This document shows positions 1-37,778 of a stretch of 38,648 nt of DNA, one piece after another. How positions within the stretch are numbered: the stretch's first letter is position 1; each line of letters opens with the position of its first letter. The DNA comes from Flavobacteriales bacterium. GTDB lineage: Bacteria; Bacteroidota; Bacteroidia; NS11-12g; UBA955. The position numbers were made by a program, and so were the translations under genes. The DNA lies in the NCBI GenBank assembly GCA_947487175.1, contig CANKVM010000017.1, forward strand, positions 1-38,648, in the 5' to 3' direction. The notes under the pieces are model-generated. The model did no database searches. It was not told the DNA's origin and saw nothing but the letters and a program-made list of their open reading frames with translations.

Positions 1-288
1 GTGAATTGCAGATAAAATACCACAGCTATTCGAATCAAACATATATTCGCTCTTGGTATATCCAATTTTGGCAATTACACCACGCGCAATGCTTTGAACA
101 TCTAAATAGGCTTCAGATTTAACCTCACCAGCTAAAACAACTTGACCTGTAGTTACCAACGTTTCGCATGCAACTTTACTGCTTGGATCGTAGGCTAAGA
201 AATTATCGATAAGCGCGTCGGAGATCTGATCTGCAACTTTATCTGGGTGCCCTTCAGACACCGATTCGGAAGTAAAAAAATACGGCAT
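1..288 (-). CDS. metK: S-adenosylmethionine synthetase, N-terminal part (cut by window edge)
   Basis: The enzyme makes S-adenosylmethionine from methionine and ATP in the cytoplasm. Only the first 96 codons are present; the reading frame is open through base 1. The N-terminus reads [20 protein letters not shown], the family hallmark: the [10 protein letters not shown] segment carries the ATP-binding His and Asp. It is followed by the conserved QISDALID and, further on, a [10 protein letters not shown] segment. The ATG at 286-288 is the natural start, because the protein begins about where other MetK proteins begin. A -7 box (TATATTTG) lies 15 nt upstream. The gene is divergent from ffh, and the two share a 108-bp intergenic region. 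Confidence 0.96.
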
Positions 289-3759: not shown

Positions 3760-6495
3760 ATGAAGAAACATATACTATCAATTTGTCTCACACTGTTTAT
3801 AAGTGTTAATCTTTTTGGTCAATTGGTTCAAATAAATCAACCAATTATTAATGATTTACCCGTTAAAAATACTTACGGTAAAATTACTAGTAGGTCCGCT
3901 ACAAATCCGAAAAGTTGTAAAGGCGACACGAGTTATTTTCCTAATTTTGGTTCAACCCAGTATCAAACCTTATCTATTGGAACCGGTCAAAGTTTGGGTC
4001 AGTTTTATGGTGCTCCAACAGAAATTACCGTATCAGGATTTAGATTTTATGGTTTCTTTCAGTACGATACAGCTAGAAAAGTAACCAGTACCACAATTAA
4101 ATGTAGAATTTACAAAGCGGGTGCCGATTCTTTACCTACAGGTTCACCGTTGGCAACTACGGTGATTCAAATTGACACCATTCAAGGTGCATTGTATTTG
4201 AGCAGAATGACCAGAAACATCGTTTTCTCATCTCCAGTAGCTTGTAATTTTCCTTATATCATTACCGTTGAATCTGATAGCACAAATTCAAGACCGGGTA
4301 TAGTTTCTAACTCCTGGGCAAATGGAGATGGTGATTACCGAAACTTAGCAGTTGGGTCTGTAAGTGGCAAATGGTACCGTTGTCTGCAATTGAATATCGG
4401 TGGAATTTCATTCAATGCACATATGCAATTGTATCCTTTTGTTAAGTACAAGTTTGGAACTGATTTTACTCCAAATTTAAATTGCTATAACGCTACGGAT
4501 ACCATTCGTTTAACAAACCTCTATAAAGGGAGTGTAAACGGAAGTGTATTCTATAATTACTACCACTACTATGAAGAATTGGGTTATGGTTATGATAGAT
4601 ATTGCCATAATTGGGTAATCAACAATTCAAACTACTTTTATAACACAGTAGATTTAAAATACAAGCCAGCTACAAAAACCAATTTGAACATCGAACTGCG
4701 TTCTATGGTTGTCAGTTATACAAGTGGAGTATGTTGGGATACAACTATCAAAACAGTTGAATTTAGGCCGGTTACCCCTTCTCTATTAAAGCCCGCTAAT
4801 GGCTGTATTGGCGATACACTAAAAATTGGTATTTCTGGCGATGCGGGTTCTACATTAAACTGGTATAACAAAGTGACCGATACAAAACCATTTAATTTAG
4901 GCAATTCTTACGTTGTAAACAATTTACAAAAAGCTGATACATTTGTTGTTTTGGCAACTAACGGTACCTGCACTTCAGGATACTTAACCATTAATTTGGC
5001 CGCAAACAAATACCCAACAAAAATTACAACCCGCAATGATTCTTTGTGCTCAAGTGCTACTGCCAATTTAATTGCAAGCACCGATAATGGCCAAATTGAT
5101 TGGTATAACTCTTTAACAGGAGGCACCAAAGTATTCACTGGAAATACATTAACAACTTCTAAATTATTTAACGATACTTCCTTTTATGTAACCGCGATCA
5201 ATAATGGTTGCGCTTATAAAGGAACCCGAATTTTGGTTAAAGCTTTTGTTGGAAGTTCATTCGCACCACCGCTACCAACAGTAGTAACCGATACAACAGT
5301 CTGTTTTACATCTACAAAAAATCATACATTGAGCGCAACTACTACAGGTAGCAACACCTGTCGTTGGTACGACGTGGCATTGGGTGGAACTCCAATAAGT
5401 ACAGGAAACACCTATTCCGTAAGCATTAATAATAGAGGTACTTCAACTTACTATGTTGAATCATGGAATGGAAACTGTGGAAGTGGTAGAACACCTGTTA
5501 ATATTTTAGCAGCTAAATATCCCCCAACATTTGTTAAAAAGAATGCTACCATTTGTTCTGGTGATTCAGCGAAAATTTCAGCTTCAACCATGTGGGGTAA
5601 TATTGATTGGTATATGGATAAAAAAACCAGTACTTCTTTCTCTAATGAAAAATTCCTGACATTGGGTGGCTTAACAAATCCAAAAAACTACATTTATTTT
5701 AAAACCAAGGATACCGTTTGCGTTAATCCTAATTTTGATAGTGTTTTGGTAACAGTAAATACATTCCCTAAAGTAACTAAACAAATTAACAAAGATGTTT
5801 GTCAGAAATCACTGGGTGAATTGGGTGTTGAAATTCCATCTGGCAATGTCTATTGGTATGAAGACGATCAAACAGTAACCGTTTATGCTACAGGAAAAAC
5901 AGTTTCTTTGGGTCAAATGTGGTCTAACATCACTTTGTATTACCAAACAGAAGCAAATGGCTGTTACAGTCCAAAAACGCCTTTAACAATAAACGCATTG
6001 CCTCGACCAACCGCAGGATTCACATGGACATTGGCTTGGCCTAGAAAAGTATCTTGTGTTCCTATTACAAACACTGGTATGACATTCAAATGGTATTGGG
6101 GTGACGGTGCAAATACAACAGGTTTAGGTGTTAACGCAAAGCATCAATATACAGATGAGGGAGATTATGTTATCAAATTAGTTACAACAAGCACAACCAA
6201 TGGTTGCACAGACACCGCAGACATTCCAGTTTCAGTAAGTCATTTGAGTACAAAAATTATTTCAAACCCAGCGGTTAAAATTTATCCTAATCCTGCACAA
6301 ATTGGATATATGCTCACCATTTCTGGCATCAATGTTACAGAAATCAAATGGTTTGATATTAGTGGAAGAGAAATTGCAAATGAAAAAGTATTTGAAAACA
6401 ATACAATTATTCCATCAAAATTGAGCCAAGGATTGTATTTCATTCAAGGCAGAAACAAAGACCAGGCATTTAAAGCAACGATTCAAATTCTATAA
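3760..6495 (+). CDS. Secreted multi-domain protein with Ig-like repeats, PKD domain and T9SS type A sorting domain
   Basis: This is a cell-surface or secreted protein of unknown specific role. A Sec signal peptide (MKKHILSICLTLFISVNLFG, then Q) opens the 911 residues. Roughly residues 60-240 form a beta-rich N-terminal region. From about residue 340 come five divergent modules of about 85 residues. Each has a Cys pair and a core Trp-Tyr (LNWYN, IDWYN, CRWYD, IDWYM, VYWYE), resembling Ig-like modules of gliding-bacteria adhesins. A PKD domain follows (about 748-827; FKWYWGDGANTTG ... HQYTDEGDYVIKLV). The final 75 residues (VKIYPNPAQ ... GLYFIQGR) are a T9SS type A sorting domain. A strong terminator follows the stop. 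Adhesion or substrate binding is an inference; no catalytic domain was recognised. Confidence 0.9.
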   Translation: MKKHILSICLTLFISVNLFGQLVQINQPIINDLPVKNTYGKITSRSATNPKSCKGDTSYFPNFGSTQYQTLSIGTGQSLGQFYGAPTEITVSGFRFYGFFQYDTARKVTSTTIKCRIYKAGADSLPTGSPLATTVIQIDTIQGALYLSRMTRNIVFSSPVACNFPYIITVESDSTNSRPGIVSNSWANGDGDYRNLAVGSVSGKWYRCLQLNIGGISFNAHMQLYPFVKYKFGTDFTPNLNCYNATDTIRLTNLYKGSVNGSVFYNYYHYYEELGYGYDRYCHNWVINNSNYFYNTVDLKYKPATKTNLNIELRSMVVSYTSGVCWDTTIKTVEFRPVTPSLLKPANGCIGDTLKIGISGDAGSTLNWYNKVTDTKPFNLGNSYVVNNLQKADTFVVLATNGTCTSGYLTINLAANKYPTKITTRNDSLCSSATANLIASTDNGQIDWYNSLTGGTKVFTGNTLTTSKLFNDTSFYVTAINNGCAYKGTRILVKAFVGSSFAPPLPTVVTDTTVCFTSTKNHTLSATTTGSNTCRWYDVALGGTPISTGNTYSVSINNRGTSTYYVESWNGNCGSGRTPVNILAAKYPPTFVKKNATICSGDSAKISASTMWGNIDWYMDKKTSTSFSNEKFLTLGGLTNPKNYIYFKTKDTVCVNPNFDSVLVTVNTFPKVTKQINKDVCQKSLGELGVEIPSGNVYWYEDDQTVTVYATGKTVSLGQMWSNITLYYQTEANGCYSPKTPLTINALPRPTAGFTWTLAWPRKVSCVPITNTGMTFKWYWGDGANTTGLGVNAKHQYTDEGDYVIKLVTTSTTNGCTDTADIPVSVSHLSTKIISNPAVKIYPNPAQIGYMLTISGINVTEIKWFDISGREIANEKVFENNTIIPSKLSQGLYFIQGRNKDQAFKATIQIL

Positions 6496-6517
6496 AATTA
6501 ATAGAAAAACTAAATAG

Positions 6518-6549
6518 AAAAAAGGACGCAATAAAATGCGTCCTTTTTT
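6518..6549. terminator. Bidirectional intrinsic terminator
   Basis: A perfect 13-bp stem (AAAAAAGGACGCA / TGCGTCCTTTTTT) with a 6-nt loop lies between convergent genes. A or T tracts on both sides let it serve the cargo gene (+) and the permease operon (-). Confidence 0.9.
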
Positions 6550-6559
6550 ATTGTATACG

Positions 6560-7588
6560 TTACGATTCAACATCTTTGAATCCCATCGACATTAAATTAA
6601 ATGCCATTACAAGAATCATAATCGCCAAGCCAGGGATGATTGCCAAATAAGCCTGATCCAATACCAAATAACCTAGATTTTCCTTTACCATAATTCCCCA
6701 ACTTGGCGTTGGTGGAGCAACTCCCAATCCTAAAAATCCCAATCCTGCTTCCAACAATATTGCGGCAGCAAAATTTGTAGTTGCAAGAACAGAAAGTGAA
6801 CCTTTTAGGTTAGGCAAAATATGTTTAAACATGATATAAAACGATGAAAATCCGGTAATCTTCGCTGATAAAATAAATTCTCTGTTTTTCATCTGCATGG
6901 TTTGTCCTCTTACAACCCTAGCAACTTCTACCCAACTGCTTAATCCTGTGGCAAGCAATACTTGAAAATAGCCTTTCCCCAAGAAAAAACTCAAACCAAG
7001 CGCAATAAGAAGCGTAGGCACAGACCAAAAAACGGTAATCAGCCATGTAAGTACCAAATCTATTTTCCCACCAAAATAACCCGAAATCAATCCTATAAAT
7101 ACACCAATAATCAATGAGATCATCATTGATAAAAAGCCAATACTCAGCGAAACCCGGGTACCAATAACCAATCGGCTATAAATATCCCTACCAAATCGGT
7201 CAGTACCAAGTATGAAATTTCTTGACTGTATTTTGCGTCCTTCAATAGAATCTAAAAACAAGGAATTAACCAAACCAGTTTTGTCATTAAAAAAGGTAAT
7301 TTTATTGTTTTTGAGGGACGCTTTATCTCTGTCTGAAACAGAAACCAACTCGCCCAAACCATCATCACCGGTTAACCAGTAAAAGAAAGATCTAGGAGCA
7401 ATTCTATTTTTTTCAACATAGTTAACTTTGGTTCCTGGAGACAAACTCGCCCACTCGGGCATAATTTGATTCGCATCTACTGAAGAATCAGGAGTGATTG
7501 AATAACCCAAAACACCCAATACAAAAAAGAAGGCACAAACTGAAAATCCAGTTAAAAATAACGATTGCTTAAACAGTTTTCTTAACAT
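6560..7588 (-). CDS. ABC transporter permease, OppC/DppC type
   Basis: This is an inner-membrane permease subunit of a peptide/nickel-type ABC importer. It is 342 residues long, with one N-terminal membrane helix (about 10-32). A soluble insert of about 80 residues follows. The family signature GTDRFGRDIYSRLVIGTRVS is near residue 128, and then come five more hydrophobic segments. The cytoplasmic EAA-like loop that contacts the ATPase is visible as REFILSAKITGFSSFYIMFKHILPN, and GLGFLGLGVAPPTPSWG is the usual OppC C-terminal motif. It overlaps the O-antigen ligase gene by 20 bp, so it is translated from the same message. No OppB, ATPase or binding protein is in the window, so partners must be encoded elsewhere. 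The substrate is unknown. Confidence 0.88.
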   Translation of the reverse strand: MLRKLFKQSLFLTGFSVCAFFFVLGVLGYSITPDSSVDANQIMPEWASLSPGTKVNYVEKNRIAPRSFFYWLTGDDGLGELVSVSDRDKASLKNNKITFFNDKTGLVNSLFLDSIEGRKIQSRNFILGTDRFGRDIYSRLVIGTRVSLSIGFLSMMISLIIGVFIGLISGYFGGKIDLVLTWLITVFWSVPTLLIALGLSFFLGKGYFQVLLATGLSSWVEVARVVRGQTMQMKNREFILSAKITGFSSFYIMFKHILPNLKGSLSVLATTNFAAAILLEAGLGFLGLGVAPPTPSWGIMVKENLGYLVLDQAYLAIIPGLAIMILVMAFNLMSMGFKDVES

Positions 7589-11801: not shown

Positions 11802-12773
11802 TTACCAACCCAATACCCAAGAAAAAATCAAAGGTGCTACAATGGTTGCATCACTTTCAACAATAAACTTAGGCGTATCAATATCTAATTTACCCCAAGT
11901 TATTTTTTCATTAGGCACGGCACCAGAATAACTTCCGTAACTCGTTGTACTATCTGAAATTTGGCAGAAATAAGACCAGAAAGGAATGTTTTCCATTTCC
12001 ATATCTTGGTACAACATAGGCACTACACAAATTGGGAAATCACCAGCTATACCGCCGCCAATTTGGAAAAATCCAATACCTTTTCCTTCGCTATTTTTAA
12101 CATACCAATCGGCCAACCACACCATATATTCAATACCACTTTTCATGGTAGAAGCTTTGATTTGATTTTTGATTACATAACTCGAAAAAATATTACCCAT
12201 GGTAGAATCTTCCCAACCTGGAACAACAATTGGTAAATTGCGCTCTGCTGCAGCCAACATCCAACTGTCTTTTGGATCAATTTCGTAGTACTGCTCTAGT
12301 TCGCCACTTAACAAAATTTGATACATATATTCATGAGGGAAATAACGCTCACCTTTATCTTCGGCACCCTTCCAAATTCCCCAAATATGTTTTTGCAATC
12401 TTCTGAAAGCTTCTTCTTCAGGGATACAAGTATCTGTAACACGGTTGTAATGATTTTCAAGCAAATCCCACTCGTCTTGAGGACTTAAATCTCTGTAGTT
12501 AGGAACACGTTTGTAATGTTTATGAGCAACGAGGTTCATGATATCTTCTTCAAGGTTTGCACCTGTGCAAGATATGATGTCAATTTTACCTTGGCGAATC
12601 ATTTCTGCAAGGCTTTTGCCTAATTCAGCAGTTGACATGGCACCAGCCAAAGTAACCATCATTTTACCACCCTCAGTTAGGTGCGTTTCATACCCTTTAG
12701 CAGCATCAACCAATGCAGCCGCATTGAAATGCAAATAATGTTTCTCGATAAATTGAGAGATAGGACCTTTCAT
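11802..12773 (-). CDS. Deoxyhypusine synthase-like protein
   Basis: This 323-residue NAD-dependent aminobutyl-transferase-like enzyme belongs to the deoxyhypusine synthase family. Visible features are LAGAMSTAELGKSLAEMI and ISCTGANLEEDIMNLV (NAD site), GFFQIGGGIAGDFPICVVPML, and SGAVPNEKITWGK. The Lys of that WGK (residue 295 from this start) aligns with the catalytic Lys of the eukaryotic enzyme. Bacteria have no eIF5A, so the acceptor is probably a polyamine such as putrescine or agmatine (homospermidine-type chemistry); that is inference. I start at MKGPISQF rather than the upstream ATG at 12803, because a TATCTTTG promoter box lies only 5 nt before this ATG and the extra ten residues fall across it. 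A globin and kdsC follow. Confidence 0.85.
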   Translation of the reverse strand: MKGPISQFIEKHYLHFNAAALVDAAKGYETHLTEGGKMMVTLAGAMSTAELGKSLAEMIRQGKIDIISCTGANLEEDIMNLVAHKHYKRVPNYRDLSPQDEWDLLENHYNRVTDTCIPEEEAFRRLQKHIWGIWKGAEDKGERYFPHEYMYQILLSGELEQYYEIDPKDSWMLAAAERNLPIVVPGWEDSTMGNIFSSYVIKNQIKASTMKSGIEYMVWLADWYVKNSEGKGIGFFQIGGGIAGDFPICVVPMLYQDMEMENIPFWSYFCQISDSTTSYGSYSGAVPNEKITWGKLDIDTPKFIVESDATIVAPLIFSWVLGW

Positions 12774-25398: not shown

Positions 25399-26238
25399 AT
25401 GAAGCCACGTTTATCAATAATTCAAATAGTAAATATGAGCATTGGATTCATGGGAATCCAATTCGGTTGGGCATTGCAAATGGCCAACATGAGTTCTATT
25501 TACGAATATTTAGGTGCAGAGCCAGATAAATTGCCATTTCTGTGGTTAGCGGCTCCCCTAACTGGATTATTGGTACAACCCATAATTGGTTATTTAAGCG
25601 ATAAAACTTGGCATCCCTTTTTAGGCAGACGAAGACCCTATTTTTTATTTGGTGCAATATTAAGTTCTATCGCACTGGTAATCATGCCAAATTCACCACA
25701 ATTATGGATGGCAGCAGGTTTGTTATGGATACTCGATTCTTCCATTAATATATCAATGGAACCATTTAGGGCGTTTGTGGCTGACAAATTACCTGAAGAA
25801 CAAAGAACCCTTGGATTTTCTATGCAAAGTTTATTCATTGGATTGGGTAGCGTAGTTGCTAGTTCTTTGCCTTGGATCTTGTCTCATTGGTTTGGAGTTA
25901 CAAATGTTTCAGACAAAGGTCAAATTCCTCATAACGTAAAAATTAGCTTTTATATTGGAGCTGTCGCATTCATTACATTTGTATTATATACCGTTTTTAC
26001 AACGAAAGAATATCCCCCAACAGAAGAAGAAATTAAAGAATTAAAAAGCAAGAAAGGTGGCTTTGTAAATGGATTCAATGAGATTTTAGATGCCATTTTG
26101 AAAATGCCTAAACGCATGAAGCAACTTGCGTTGGTGCAATTCTTAACTTGGCCGGGATTGTTTCTAATGTGGTTTTATTACACCCCAGCCGTGGGTAACT
26201 TCATTTATGGAGGCTCTGCCGATGGTTCATCAACTTAG
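25399..26238 (+). CDS. SLC45-like MFS sugar transporter, N-terminal part (gene interrupted)
   Basis: The start is normal for the glycoside-pentoside-hexuronide/SLC45 branch: GIQFGWALQMANMSSIYEYLGA, then LWLAAPLTGLLVQPIIGYLSDKTW and GRRRPYF. The frame stops after 279 codons at the TAG created by a head-to-tail 458-bp repeat (copy 1 at 25778-26235, copy 2 at 26236-26693). Removing one copy joins this part to the downstream open frame and gives one 449-residue transporter, the usual length. It follows the GH13 lipoprotein by 3 bp, which suggests import of maltose-like sugars. Whether the break is real or an assembly fault cannot be decided here. Confidence 0.85.
   Translation: MKPRLSIIQIVNMSIGFMGIQFGWALQMANMSSIYEYLGAEPDKLPFLWLAAPLTGLLVQPIIGYLSDKTWHPFLGRRRPYFLFGAILSSIALVIMPNSPQLWMAAGLLWILDSSINISMEPFRAFVADKLPEEQRTLGFSMQSLFIGLGSVVASSLPWILSHWFGVTNVSDKGQIPHNVKISFYIGAVAFITFVLYTVFTTKEYPPTEEEIKELKSKKGGFVNGFNEILDAILKMPKRMKQLALVQFLTWPGLFLMWFYYTPAVGNFIYGGSADGSST
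25778..26235 (+). repeat. 458-bp tandem direct repeat, copy 1
   Basis: This copy abuts copy 2 (26236-26693) with no spacer. I count 21 differences in 458 bp; 20 are synonymous and one changes Asn to Lys (GFNEILD versus GFKEILD). The last ~110 bp are identical in both. Confidence 0.93.
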
Positions 26239-26693
26239 CTGATAAATTACCAGAAGAACAGAGAACACTTGGCTTTTCTATGCAGAGTTTATTCATTGGA
26301 TTGGGCAGCGTTGTTGCTAGTTCATTGCCTTGGATCTTGTCTCATTGGTTTGGAGTTACAAATGTTTCAGACAAAGGTCAAATTCCTCATAACGTAAAAA
26401 TTAGCTTTTATATTGGTGCGGTTGCTTTCATTACATTTGTTTTATATACCGTATTTACAACGAAAGAATATCCCCCAACAGAAGAAGAAATAAAAGAATT
26501 AAAAAGCAAGAAAGGTGGATTTGTAAATGGATTCAAAGAGATTTTAGATGCCATTTTAAAAATGCCAAAACGCATGAAGCAACTTGCGTTGGTGCAATTC
26601 TTAACTTGGCCGGGATTGTTTCTAATGTGGTTTTATTACACCCCAGCCGTGGGTAACTTCATTTATGGAGGCTCTGCCGATGGTTCATCAACT
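26236..26693 (+). repeat. 458-bp tandem direct repeat, copy 2
   Basis: Second copy of 25778-26235, shifted by 458 bp (2 mod 3) and so out of frame with the first part. Its own coding frame is open throughout and continues into the transporter C-terminus. Confidence 0.93.
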
Positions 26694-27206
26694 GTAATAG
26701 TAAAAGATTGGATTTCGATAGTTGATCAAAACAAACTCATGTACACCAGAGGTACAGAATTCGCAGGATTAACCTATTCATTCCAAAACATAATTACATT
26801 TTTATTCGCATTTTTAATACCATTTTTGGCCTCTAAATTATCAAACAAGTATACCCACATGTTGTGCTTGCTAGTTGGTGGAATTGGTTTGCTCTCTATT
26901 AATTTTATTGATAAAGACAGTATTTTGGGACTTTATGGCGTTATGGCATGTGTTGGAATTGCATGGAGCAGTATTTTATCCATGCCGTACAGTATGCTAA
27001 GCGGATGTTTGCCAGAAAACAAGATTGGAATTTACATGGGTATTTTTAATTTCTTCATTGTTTTGCCTGAAATAATTGCAGCACTGTTCTTTGGAGCTTT
27101 TATGAAAAATATCCTTCATAACAATCAAATTTATGGGGTAATGTGCGGAGGCGTTTTACTTATAGTTGCTGCAATGTTAACCACCAGAATTACTTCTGAT
27201 AATTAA
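26280..27206 (+). CDS. SLC45-like MFS sugar transporter, C-terminal part (gene interrupted)
   Basis: This continues the transporter. The first 138 residues (MQSLFIGLGSVVASS to ADGSST) repeat the end of the N-terminal part almost exactly, and the remaining 170 carry the C-terminal helices (AGLTYSFQNIITFLFAFLIPFL, GVMACVGIAWSSILSMPYSMLSGCLPENKIG). The ATG at 26280 is simply the first internal Met after the repeat junction; no promoter or SD precedes it, so independent expression is unlikely. The SMPYSMLSG segment is typical of SLC45/sucrose-type carriers. Confidence 0.8.
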   Translation: MQSLFIGLGSVVASSLPWILSHWFGVTNVSDKGQIPHNVKISFYIGAVAFITFVLYTVFTTKEYPPTEEEIKELKSKKGGFVNGFKEILDAILKMPKRMKQLALVQFLTWPGLFLMWFYYTPAVGNFIYGGSADGSSTVIVKDWISIVDQNKLMYTRGTEFAGLTYSFQNIITFLFAFLIPFLASKLSNKYTHMLCLLVGGIGLLSINFIDKDSILGLYGVMACVGIAWSSILSMPYSMLSGCLPENKIGIYMGIFNFFIVLPEIIAALFFGAFMKNILHNNQIYGVMCGGVLLIVAAMLTTRITSDN

Positions 27207-29742: not shown

Positions 29743-30531
29743 ATGAAAAAGTCGATTTTTAGTTTTTTAGCATTTGTTTTGGTTAGCAGTTGTGCATTTG
29801 GACAAAATTTAAGTCCTCAAAAAGGATTCTACCCTATTCAAAAAACGCAACGAAAAATGACCCAACTTGCCAAAAACAAGATGTTGATGCAAGGGCAAGA
29901 AATGAACATGGTAACGAATATGAATATGTATTCAACCATTAATATTCAAAGCCCTGTTTCTGATAGTCAGAAGATCACAATTACATTCAATAAAATTGAA
30001 GGCGATATTGAAGTAATGGGTAAAAAACAAAATATTCCTGATGCTGCAAAAACTTTCAAACCTATTGTTCTAACTACAAATAATGATGGTATCATAAATT
30101 CCATCACTGGCAGTCCTGAACTACTCAAGCAAATGGAACAATCTTACAGTGGGAGTTTCCAAGTAAACAAAACTTTTACGCAGTTTTTAAATATAAAATC
30201 AATTAAAACTATCGGCGATATTTGGTTAGATAGTAATATTGATGGAGGCAATTCCATGATCACACAATATACTTTTAATAGAAATGAAAATGGAAATGCA
30301 ATTTTAAGCTTTACTACTTCTATGACTGTTCAAAGTGACATGAATCAAAATGGCATTATCATCCACAACGACTTACTCGGTAAAATGAATGGTTCTATGA
30401 CCGTTGACACCAAATCAAACTATATCATTTCTACAACTGGAAATATAAATTTAGAAGGTCGAATGGAAATGAATACCCAAGACATTCCGGTAAATATTAG
30501 TTCAACATTTAACGATTCAATTATAAAATAA
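29743..30531 (+). CDS. Exported protein of unknown function
   Basis: This 262-residue protein begins with a signal sequence (MKKSIFSFLAFVLVSSCAFG). Cleavage could be by signal peptidase I after AFG or by lipoprotein processing at VSSC. The mature part is polar, rich in Met, Asn, Thr and Ile, and beta-strand prone, with repeated alternating segments such as INIQSPVSDSQKITITFNKI and NAILSFTTSMTVQSD. I do not recognise the family with confidence; its layout resembles small outer-membrane-associated beta proteins of Bacteroidota. It converges on recX with 5 bp between the stops. Confidence 0.7.
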   Translation: MKKSIFSFLAFVLVSSCAFGQNLSPQKGFYPIQKTQRKMTQLAKNKMLMQGQEMNMVTNMNMYSTINIQSPVSDSQKITITFNKIEGDIEVMGKKQNIPDAAKTFKPIVLTTNNDGIINSITGSPELLKQMEQSYSGSFQVNKTFTQFLNIKSIKTIGDIWLDSNIDGGNSMITQYTFNRNENGNAILSFTTSMTVQSDMNQNGIIIHNDLLGKMNGSMTVDTKSNYIISTTGNINLEGRMEMNTQDIPVNISSTFNDSIIK

Positions 30532-30536
30532 ATAAT

Positions 30537-34410: not shown

Positions 34411-35496
34411 ATGCAACGAATATTCGGATTTGTATTTGCACTTTTCGCAACGCTTACATTATCAGCTCAAATTGATAAAATTATAGATAACTATCCAATT
34501 AGAAATATTGGACCTGCTGCAATGAGTGGCAGAATTACCGCAATTGCGGTGCCAAGAAATACCGCCACAATCAATTTTAAAAACACAATTTATATTGGTG
34601 CAGCAAGCGGCGGAGTTTGGAAAAGCACTAACGCGGGTATTTCATGGAATCCAATTTTTGATGAACAAGATATTCAAAGTATAGGTTCAATTGCCATTGA
34701 TCCAAACAATGCCAATATCATTTATGTGGGCACTGGAGAAGGAAATCCTAGAAATAGCCACAACAGTGGAAAGGGCATTTATAAAAGTTTAGATGCTGGT
34801 AAAACCTGGAAATGCATAGGATTAGAAGCAACAAAAACAATTCATAGAATTGTAATTAATCCTTTAAACTCAAATCAAATTTATGTGGCTGCAATGGGTA
34901 GTGTTTGGGGCCCAAATGAAGATCGTGGAGTTTTCAAAAGCAATGACGGCGGACAAACTTGGCAAAAGGTTCTTTATACAAATTCAACAACAGGATGCGC
35001 AGAATTGATTCTCGACATAAATAATCCAAATAAAATCATTGCCAATATGTATGATTTTCAAAGAAAACCATATACATATAGAAGTGGTGGCAATGGTGGT
35101 GGACTTTATGTTTCAAATGATGGTGGAAGTAATTGGACAAAATTATCATCTAAAAATGGACTGCCTGAAGGCAATTTAGGTAGAATAGGAATTGCAATGT
35201 CATCGTCTAATCCAGATAGGATATATGCCTTGATTGAATCAAAAAATACAGCCTTTTATCGTAGCAATGATGGAGGTACAAATTGGTTTAAAACTTCACA
35301 AAATCCAAATATTGGAAACAGACCATTTTATTACTCAGAAATATATGTGGATCCTAAAAATGAAAACCGTGTATTTAGTATTTGGAGTCAAATTTCAAAA
35401 AGTGAAGACGGAGGGAAAAACTGGGAAATATTGGCAGACTGGGGACATATCCATCCAGATCACCACGCATTTTTTGTTCACCAATATATGCCTTAA
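34411..35496 (+). CDS. VPS10/sortilin-like BNR-repeat secreted protein, N-terminal part (gene interrupted)
   Basis: A signal peptide (MQRIFGFVFALFATLTLSAQ) precedes IRNIGPAAMSGRITAIAV. This is the usual start of the roughly 1000-residue beta-propeller proteins of Bacteroidota that are often annotated glycosyl hydrolase or sortilin-like. Six Asp-box/BNR units are visible here: STNAGISW, SLDAGKTW, SNDGGQTW, SNDGGSNW, SNDGGTNW and SEDGGKNW. The frame ends after 361 codons just past a 263-bp tandem repeat junction (copy 1 at 35220-35482, copy 2 at 35483-35745). Deleting one copy restores a single frame of about 1034 residues. Enzymatic activity is unproven for this family. Confidence 0.82.
   Translation: MQRIFGFVFALFATLTLSAQIDKIIDNYPIRNIGPAAMSGRITAIAVPRNTATINFKNTIYIGAASGGVWKSTNAGISWNPIFDEQDIQSIGSIAIDPNNANIIYVGTGEGNPRNSHNSGKGIYKSLDAGKTWKCIGLEATKTIHRIVINPLNSNQIYVAAMGSVWGPNEDRGVFKSNDGGQTWQKVLYTNSTTGCAELILDINNPNKIIANMYDFQRKPYTYRSGGNGGGLYVSNDGGSNWTKLSSKNGLPEGNLGRIGIAMSSSNPDRIYALIESKNTAFYRSNDGGTNWFKTSQNPNIGNRPFYYSEIYVDPKNENRVFSIWSQISKSEDGGKNWEILADWGHIHPDHHAFFVHQYMP
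35220..35482 (+). repeat. 263-bp tandem direct repeat, copy 1
   Basis: This copy abuts copy 2 (35483-35745) with no spacer. I count 11 differences in 263 bp and all are synonymous in the gene's frame. The first difference is AGG versus AGA at the repeat boundary itself. Confidence 0.93.
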
Positions 35497-35745
35497 TAGA
35501 ATCAAAAAATACAGCCTTTTATCGTAGCAATGATGGAGGTACAAATTGGTTTAAAACTTCACAAAATCCAAATATTGGAAACAGACCGTTTTATTATTCA
35601 GAAATATATGTAGATCCTAAAAATGAAAATCGTGTTTTCAGTATTTGGAGTCAAATTTCAAAAAGTGAAGACGGAGGGAAAAACTGGGAAATATTGGCAG
35701 ATTGGGGACATATTCATCCAGATCACCACGCATTTTTTGTTCACC
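35483..35745 (+). repeat. 263-bp tandem direct repeat, copy 2
   Basis: Second copy of 35220-35482, shifted by 263 bp (2 mod 3). Its frame is open and continues into the C-terminal part of the gene. Confidence 0.93.
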
Positions 35746-37778
35746 CCGACGATCCTAATTTCATGATTAATGGCAACGATGGAGGCTTAAATATTTCTTA
35801 TGATGGAGGACAAACTTGGCGATTTGCAGAAAACATTCCTGTAGGTCAATTTTATCATGTCAATGTAGACAATCAGATTCCTTACAATGTTTATGGAGGT
35901 TTACAAGATAATGGAAGTTGGATTGGTCCTGGGTTTTTATTCAAAAATGGGGGAATTCAAAATCATGATTGGCAAGAATTACTCTATGGAGATGGATTTG
36001 ATGTTGCCCCAATTGAAAATAACTCCAATGAGGGTTATGCTATGTATCAGAGTGGCAATTTCTTTCATTATAATTTGAAAACTCAAAAAACTTCGTTTAT
36101 AAAACCTGTTCACCCGAATGGCATTAACCTAAGATTCAATTGGAATGCGGCGCTGAGTCTTATCCCTCAAAAACCAAATTCACTTTATTATGGAAGTCAA
36201 TTTTTACATGTAAGTCATAATAAAGGTGCAACTTGGGAAATCATTTCTCCAGATTTAACAACCAACGATACTGCCAAATTGCACCAGGCCCAAAGCGGGG
36301 GATTAACGATTGACGCTACTGGTGCTGAAAATTATTGCACAATTATTAGTATCGCACCAAATCCAGTAAATCCTGAAAAAGAAATTATTGTAGGTACTGA
36401 TGACGGACAAGTTCAACAAACAATTGATGGTGGCAAGAGCTGGTCGAATTTAACTGGAAATATTAAAGGATTACCAAAAAATGCGTGGATCCCAGTTATC
36501 TTTCTTGATACAAAAATCAATATTTGGGTAGTAGCAAATAATTACCGCCAAAACGATTGGAACCCTTATTTATTTAGGTCAAATGATGGTGGCACAACTT
36601 GGCAGTCTATGATTACCCCAGTTGTAAAAGGCCATTGTTTATCAATAGTAGTTGATCCTAAAAACCATCAATTGGTATTTTTGGGCACCGACCAAGGGCT
36701 TTATGTTAGCTTTAATGGAGGAACCTCATGGAAAAAATGGAAGAAATTCCCTTCATGCCCTGTTCAAGATTTAAAAATCCAAACAATAGAAAATGATCTG
36801 GTTATTGGAACATTTGGAAGAGGGATTTGGATTATGGATGATATTTCGGCGTTAAGGAAATTAACAAATGAAATCACTTACAATAAAAACATTCAAATTT
36901 TAGGTACTAGTCATGGATATATCTTTGATTACAACCAACCCAATGGAATGCGTTTTGGAGCCGATGCAGTTTGGAGTGCACCAAATAAACCCTATGGTTG
37001 CAACGTAAATATGTATTTGAACAAGAAAACGGACGATAAAAAAATTGAATTAACAGGAACGGTGTATAACTCAAAAAATCAATTAATAAGAACCCATAAA
37101 TTCAGTTTTGACAGTACGGGATTCTATAGAATTTCATGGAGAATGATTGAGGATGGATTTTATTTCCCTACAAATCAAACTCCCAAAGCGGATGAAACTT
37201 TGCCTTCTGGCAGAACTGTTGAACCTGGTAAATACAAATTGGTTATATCTGATAAGAGCAATAATAAAGACAGTGCGTTTGTGGAAGTGATTTACCCTAA
37301 TTACGAATTTGATACAAAGTTAAATGCGCAGCAAACTACTGCCTTTAATGAATTTAAGCCTATCGTAAAAAGAGCCTATGATGCCTTTGAAGGAATCAAA
37401 CAAATTGAAAAAACTTTGAATTCTTTAAACGATTACAAATGGGAAAATGACAGCATCAAAAAATATATTGAGAAAATGAAAAAACCACTTTCTGATAGTA
37501 TTTCAGTTTTGAAAAATTTATTCATGATGCCCGATGAAATTACCTATTACGAGGAATCAACGGTTAGGCTAAATGACCTATTGAGCAATGCAAATAGCCT
37601 TATAAGTCAGGGATTAAGCGTTGATCAAAATGCATTCAATGCAATTAAAAATGCCAAGAATGAAACAGAAAAAGTTTGTCAAAGAATCAATGCGTTTTCG
37701 AATTCAAATTGGATGCCATTTGCTGAAAAATTGAAAAAAGAGACGATTCAGATTATTCCAAAAGAAAATAGATACTAA
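35694..37778 (+). CDS. VPS10/sortilin-like BNR-repeat secreted protein, C-terminal part (gene interrupted)
   Basis: This continues the propeller protein. The frame is in fact open from copy 2 of the repeat (35483); the TTG at 35694 is only the first start-like codon and has no promoter. Further Asp-box units are SYDGGQTW, HNKGATW, TIDGGKSW, SNDGGTTW and SFNGGTSW, giving about eleven in the joined protein. After residue 380 comes a non-propeller part with FGADAVWSAPNKPYG, a beta-sandwich-like stretch (SGRTVEPGKYKLVISD) and a helical C-terminus (residues about 530-690). No T9SS sorting domain is present. The gene converges on the GH13 gene, 19 bp away. Confidence 0.8.
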   Translation: MADWGHIHPDHHAFFVHPDDPNFMINGNDGGLNISYDGGQTWRFAENIPVGQFYHVNVDNQIPYNVYGGLQDNGSWIGPGFLFKNGGIQNHDWQELLYGDGFDVAPIENNSNEGYAMYQSGNFFHYNLKTQKTSFIKPVHPNGINLRFNWNAALSLIPQKPNSLYYGSQFLHVSHNKGATWEIISPDLTTNDTAKLHQAQSGGLTIDATGAENYCTIISIAPNPVNPEKEIIVGTDDGQVQQTIDGGKSWSNLTGNIKGLPKNAWIPVIFLDTKINIWVVANNYRQNDWNPYLFRSNDGGTTWQSMITPVVKGHCLSIVVDPKNHQLVFLGTDQGLYVSFNGGTSWKKWKKFPSCPVQDLKIQTIENDLVIGTFGRGIWIMDDISALRKLTNEITYNKNIQILGTSHGYIFDYNQPNGMRFGADAVWSAPNKPYGCNVNMYLNKKTDDKKIELTGTVYNSKNQLIRTHKFSFDSTGFYRISWRMIEDGFYFPTNQTPKADETLPSGRTVEPGKYKLVISDKSNNKDSAFVEVIYPNYEFDTKLNAQQTTAFNEFKPIVKRAYDAFEGIKQIEKTLNSLNDYKWENDSIKKYIEKMKKPLSDSISVLKNLFMMPDEITYYEESTVRLNDLLSNANSLISQGLSVDQNAFNAIKNAKNETEKVCQRINAFSNSNWMPFAEKLKKETIQIIPKENRY

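Follow-up and report, generated by a model that had tools for sequence, protein, structure and literature searches.

Passages of Chen et al. 2020 (PMC7111523) describe scaffold joins at which an overlap between the two flanking contigs goes unused, so that it is written out twice with Ns in between; they also name coexisting related strains as a main trouble for de Bruijn assemblers. A related kind of error, the heterotype false duplication, is set out in a passage of PMC9516828: a haploid sequence contains two diverged versions of one locus as if they were separate copies, and one scaffold may carry both. The titles listed in the search on this kind of error include none about bacteria. In living cells, tandem duplication in natural transformation is documented in Streptococcus pneumoniae (PMC3784515), where the units are about 100–900 kb long.

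The repeat described here resembles the joints in those passages of Chen et al. in that an overlap would have been kept twice; it differs in having no Ns, and the copies in this genome are 94–96% identical. Where the versions treated in the passage of PMC9516828 are alleles of a diploid animal, ours would be, by inference, those of two bacterial strains, and the gap between copies that is characteristic there is absent here. With the merodiploids made by transformation (PMC3784515), our repeat shares head-to-tail copies of a chromosomal segment; its units and those like it are only 193–458 bp long, occur several times per genome and lie beside matching contig overlaps that were left unjoined.

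Structure of the repeat and of the interrupted gene

The window, that is, the whole stretch of 38,648 nucleotides that was analysed, is the entire contig C17 of genome G000, which comprises 2.42 Mb on 156 contigs and is rated 100% complete and 1.01% contaminated. Behind an alpha-amylase-like gene lies a gene for an MFS transporter, which is arranged as follows.

25399..26238, plus strand: 5' fragment of the MFS transporter gene, ORF of 279 aa (Pfam MFS_1, 6.9e-21)
25778..26235, plus strand: copy 1 of the repeat (version A; unit D1), aligning to a segment of the gene in congener G012 that ends at C2:160928
26235..26236, no strand: blunt joint, without a base common to the copy 1 or copy 2 flank and without N
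26236..26693, plus strand: copy 2 of the repeat (version B; unit D1), aligning to the same G012 segment as copy 1, from C2:160473
26280..27206, plus strand: 3' fragment of the same MFS transporter gene, ORF of 308 aa (Pfam MFS_1, 1.1e-13)

The first-pass annotation had reported a 458-bp head-to-tail repeat with 21 differences that breaks the transporter frame, and we found it again in every one of these respects. The two copies adjoin directly; the unit length is 2 mod 3, and a TAG arises at 26236–26238, which is the stop of the 279-aa ORF. Joining 25399–26235 to 26694–27206 restores a frame of 449 residues, as had been proposed, and the path via copy 2 likewise gives 449; the orthologue in G012 is intact and also has 449 aa.

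The copies are 95.4% identical, and their differing sites are all at third codon positions (21/21; P 9.6e-11 if the positions were equally likely). Twenty whole codons differ, 19 of them synonymously and one, at 26077, from N to K; G012, like copy 2, has Lys there. The earlier count of 20 synonymous changes and one Asn-to-Lys thus holds for the replacement and for 19 of the synonymous codons, while the twentieth lies in the first codon, which is cut by the repeat boundary (25779 G versus 26237 A): reading it as GTG/GTA assumes a G before copy 2, and the assembled sequence has T there. At its tail, copy 1 is identical to copy 2 over 126 bp. The repeat is far beyond chance (E 2.5e-212 for copy 2 in a search of the own genome), and in that search the two window copies alone matched, with no third copy of the unit.

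Comparison with congeners

We searched 14 genomes including the own one, and 11 matched, so that 10 of the 13 congeners are represented. The five closest were used for copy number; the five other matching congeners gave partial or low-identity matches and were left out of the copy number of D1. In the five closest genomes, the left part of the query, up to the end of copy 1, and its right part, beginning with copy 2, matched overlapping stretches of the target. The overlap is 456 bp in G012, 456 bp in G004, 455 bp in G013, 454 bp in G006 and 446 bp in G010, which means that one segment of the congener serves both copies. The comparison with close relatives that the first-pass annotation had suggested therefore yields a segment carried once in each of these five. 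In G008 both copies also coincide at one place, but the gene runs off the contig.

The window aligns over its full length with G012:C2 134695–173573. Smaller gaps occur inside the aligned blocks; the alignment steps back only twice, by 456 bp between 26235 and 26238 and by 263 bp between 35482 and 35483. Of the 21 differing sites of D1, G012 has the base of copy 1 at 14, that of copy 2 at 6 and another base at 1, and the corresponding numbers for G004 are 5, 11 and 5, so part of the variation between the copies is common to other species. Between copy 1 and G012, 13 of the 15 differences in D1 are at third positions, as expected of orthologous versions under selection. Phasing of the flanks by their identity to G012 was uninformative.

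Further head-to-tail units in the same genome

Duplications were scanned for in the window and in 40 stretches (728,287 bases) of G000, and, in each of four congeners, over 10 stretches that add up to 200 kb, the G004 set containing 6,090 N. The offset scans were ungapped; when the search was run again with gapped blastn, the D4 boundaries shifted by a few bases. Besides D1, the following units were found.

35220..35482, plus strand: D2 copy 1, 263-bp unit, 11/11 differences at third positions
35483..35745, plus strand: D2 copy 2, 263-bp unit; the gene falls into ORFs 34411–35496 and 35694–37778
C25 13031–13262 and 13263–13494: D3, 232 bp, 94.4% identity, disturbs a small ORF
C35 about 6304–6496 and 6497–6689: D4, 193 bp, 94.3% identity, splits a minus-strand ORF
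C85 2049–2122 and 2123–2196: D5, 74 bp doubled exactly, present once in G012 and in G004

The joint of D2 splits a sortilin/BNR-repeat gene and is probably an artefact like that of D1; the small ORF at D3 is presumably acetyltransferase-like. The segments of D2 and D3 are single in G012, G004 and G013, and that of D4 in G012, G004 and G006. D5 is either a place where two identical contig ends were joined or a small duplication that is real. The unit length is not a multiple of three in any of D1–D5. Over D1–D4 together, third positions account for 52 of the 56 differences (P 1.2e-20 with all positions equally likely).

The window and the 728 kb of G000 thus hold four diverged head-to-tail units, and no diverged pair of abutting copies was found in 800 kb of G012, G004, G010 and G008. 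With the window left out, the excess over the congeners is 2 versus 0, which alone is not significant.

The numbers of bases shared at the joints of D1–D4 are 0, 0, 0 and 1, as counted with the copy 1 flank in place of version B's own left flank. No N was seen at the window joint or in the sampled 728 kb of G000. Illegitimate joining commonly leaves a short stretch shared at the joint, and blunt joints do occur in cells. Blunt joints are what the laying of contigs end to end predicts; they are compatible with blunt joining in a cell too.

Overlapping contig ends left unjoined

Among the 93 of 312 contig ends of G000 that were sampled, five pairs overlap end to end, three of them diverged and two identical over exactly 127 bp; on the congener side, the comparison covered 40 stretches compared mutually within each genome. 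One of the diverged pairs involves the window itself.

1..255, no strand: start of the window (C17), end-to-end overlap with the end of C30, 95.3% identity; both map to G012:C2 134695–134949

The ends of C30 and C17 are in joining orientation, with 12/12 differences in one codon phase; on G012:C2, C17 runs from 134695 upward and C30 from 134949 downward. C36 and C14 overlap by 1110 bp at 96.0% identity, with 43/44 differences in one codon phase, and they adjoin in G012 and G004 with the same 1110-bp overlap. Both pairs are thus neighbours in G012, where the lengths of the overlaps match exactly. The ends of C38 and C33 overlap by 909 bp at 92.5% identity, and a single codon phase holds only 43 of their 68 differences; this overlap opens with exactly 127 identical bases. 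The two further pairs, C12/C23 and C65/C43, share exactly 127 identical bases each. Such identities suggest a de Bruijn word of 127. A rule that would tie the tails at the joints to the word length of the assembler was dropped, the tails of D2–D4 being 31, 58 and 37. Not counted as end-to-end overlaps were the start of C1 and the end of C8 (131 bp, 93.9%), the ends of C6 and C16 (82 bp), and short repeat matches near the ends of C1, C5, C7, C18 and C41.

The unmerged overlaps in G000 point to a mixture of strains, and diverged contig ends of this kind, laid side by side, would give exactly the picture seen between 26235 and 26236.

Origin of the repeat

As judged from the sequence, the 458-bp repeat is almost certainly an assembly artefact made from the contigs of two strains. 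This reading is based on the single-copy congeners, the third-position pattern, the additional joints in G000 and the diverged contig-end overlaps that were left unjoined. Two or more strains of this species, differing by about 4–6% at these places, would have been present in the sample; the left contig would have ended in the version of strain A (to 26235) and the right one begun in that of strain B (from 26236). The two contigs, overlapping by 458 bp, would have been too diverged to merge, and a later joining step may have placed them end to end without Ns. It is this combination of a strain mixture and a joining step that we infer, and the transporter gene is probably single-copy and unbroken in living cells. 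Some points count against the artefact: the joint has no Ns, although both of the papers on assembly errors cited above describe Ns or gaps; outside the window the excess of such units over the congeners is by itself not significant; and the differences in the C38/C33 overlap keep to one codon phase in only the 43 of 68 cases given above.

The only rival of note, itself unlikely and in our estimate very much so, is a real and recent mosaic tandem duplication, in which DNA of another strain was taken in with homology at one end and a non-homologous join at the other, so that the two versions came to lie head to tail and the gene was broken. It too would yield diverged copies that had each evolved as working sequence, and the duplications documented in pneumococcal transformation speak in its favour. 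However, it requires no fewer than four independent events within the third of the genome that was sampled, and every one of them would have broken or disturbed a gene; overlapping contig ends left unjoined are not among its predictions. Slightly less probable again is a reading in which the cells themselves carry the joints, in a species that often takes up DNA of sister strains and is left with short mosaic head-to-tail duplications that break genes; if this were true, recombination with homology at just one end would be a frequent event.

The first-pass annotation had already argued that the repeat is no true in-place duplication and that two working versions, probably from two strains or from two recombined loci, stand side by side. 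The single-copy congeners, the further joints and the overlapping contig ends support the first of these statements and the two strains. An old duplication in place within one genome, whose copies have since drifted apart, would account for two similar copies that adjoin; we reject it as having next to no chance, since all 21 differences are at third positions despite the broken frame, part of the variation is common to other species, as the G012 and G004 sites indicate, and the five congeners are single-copy. The two recombined loci fare no better: an exchange between paralogues within the same genome is just as improbable and was rejected, because the own genome has no third copy and each of the five closest congeners offers a single place to which the two copies align, and nothing was found in its favour.

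The divergence under protein-level selection expected of heterotype duplications is found here (21/21 in D1, 52/56 in D1–D4), and the locus is single in relatives for each of D1–D4; a gap, which we take as a usual sign of the type and not as its definition, is absent from the window joint. Overlapping, unmerged contig ends, as at scaffold joins that keep an overlap twice, occur in G000, and Ns between the flanks do not separate the copies; a joint without Ns makes this a likeness to the type of Chen et al. and not a member of that exact type.

As biology, the repeat is most likely without importance; as a caution, it is relevant. Even with its ratings for completeness and contamination, the genome would still carry several false gene breaks, and such breaks could pass into annotations as pseudogenes or split genes. 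A scan for their sign is easy: abutting copies of about 92–97% identity, with nearly all differences at third positions and no N. The unit length of such an artefact need not be a multiple of three.

Other repeats and alignment breaks

The alignment of the window with G012 has one other break, at 30530–30534, where G012 has about 880 bp more, holding an ORF of 294 aa; this is either gene gain or loss between the species or a further assembly joint. At C25 about 12681–12709, close to D3, G012, G004 and G013 are each about 800–850 bp longer, and here either a gene was lost in G000 or another stretch was skipped.

Short arrays of more than two copies are also present in the stretches of G000, with units of 63/42 nt in C105 and of 40/47 nt near the start of C5. 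The congeners have repeats as well: a 66-nt array of about 2.5 copies in G012, a long 33/66-nt array together with spaced repeats at 604 in G004, and, in G010, two 640-bp copies separated by 15.5 kb. The 40- and 47-nt tandem repeats of C5 lie at 411–707, and similar sequence is found near the starts of C1 and C7; this is possibly a dispersed repeat at which contigs break.
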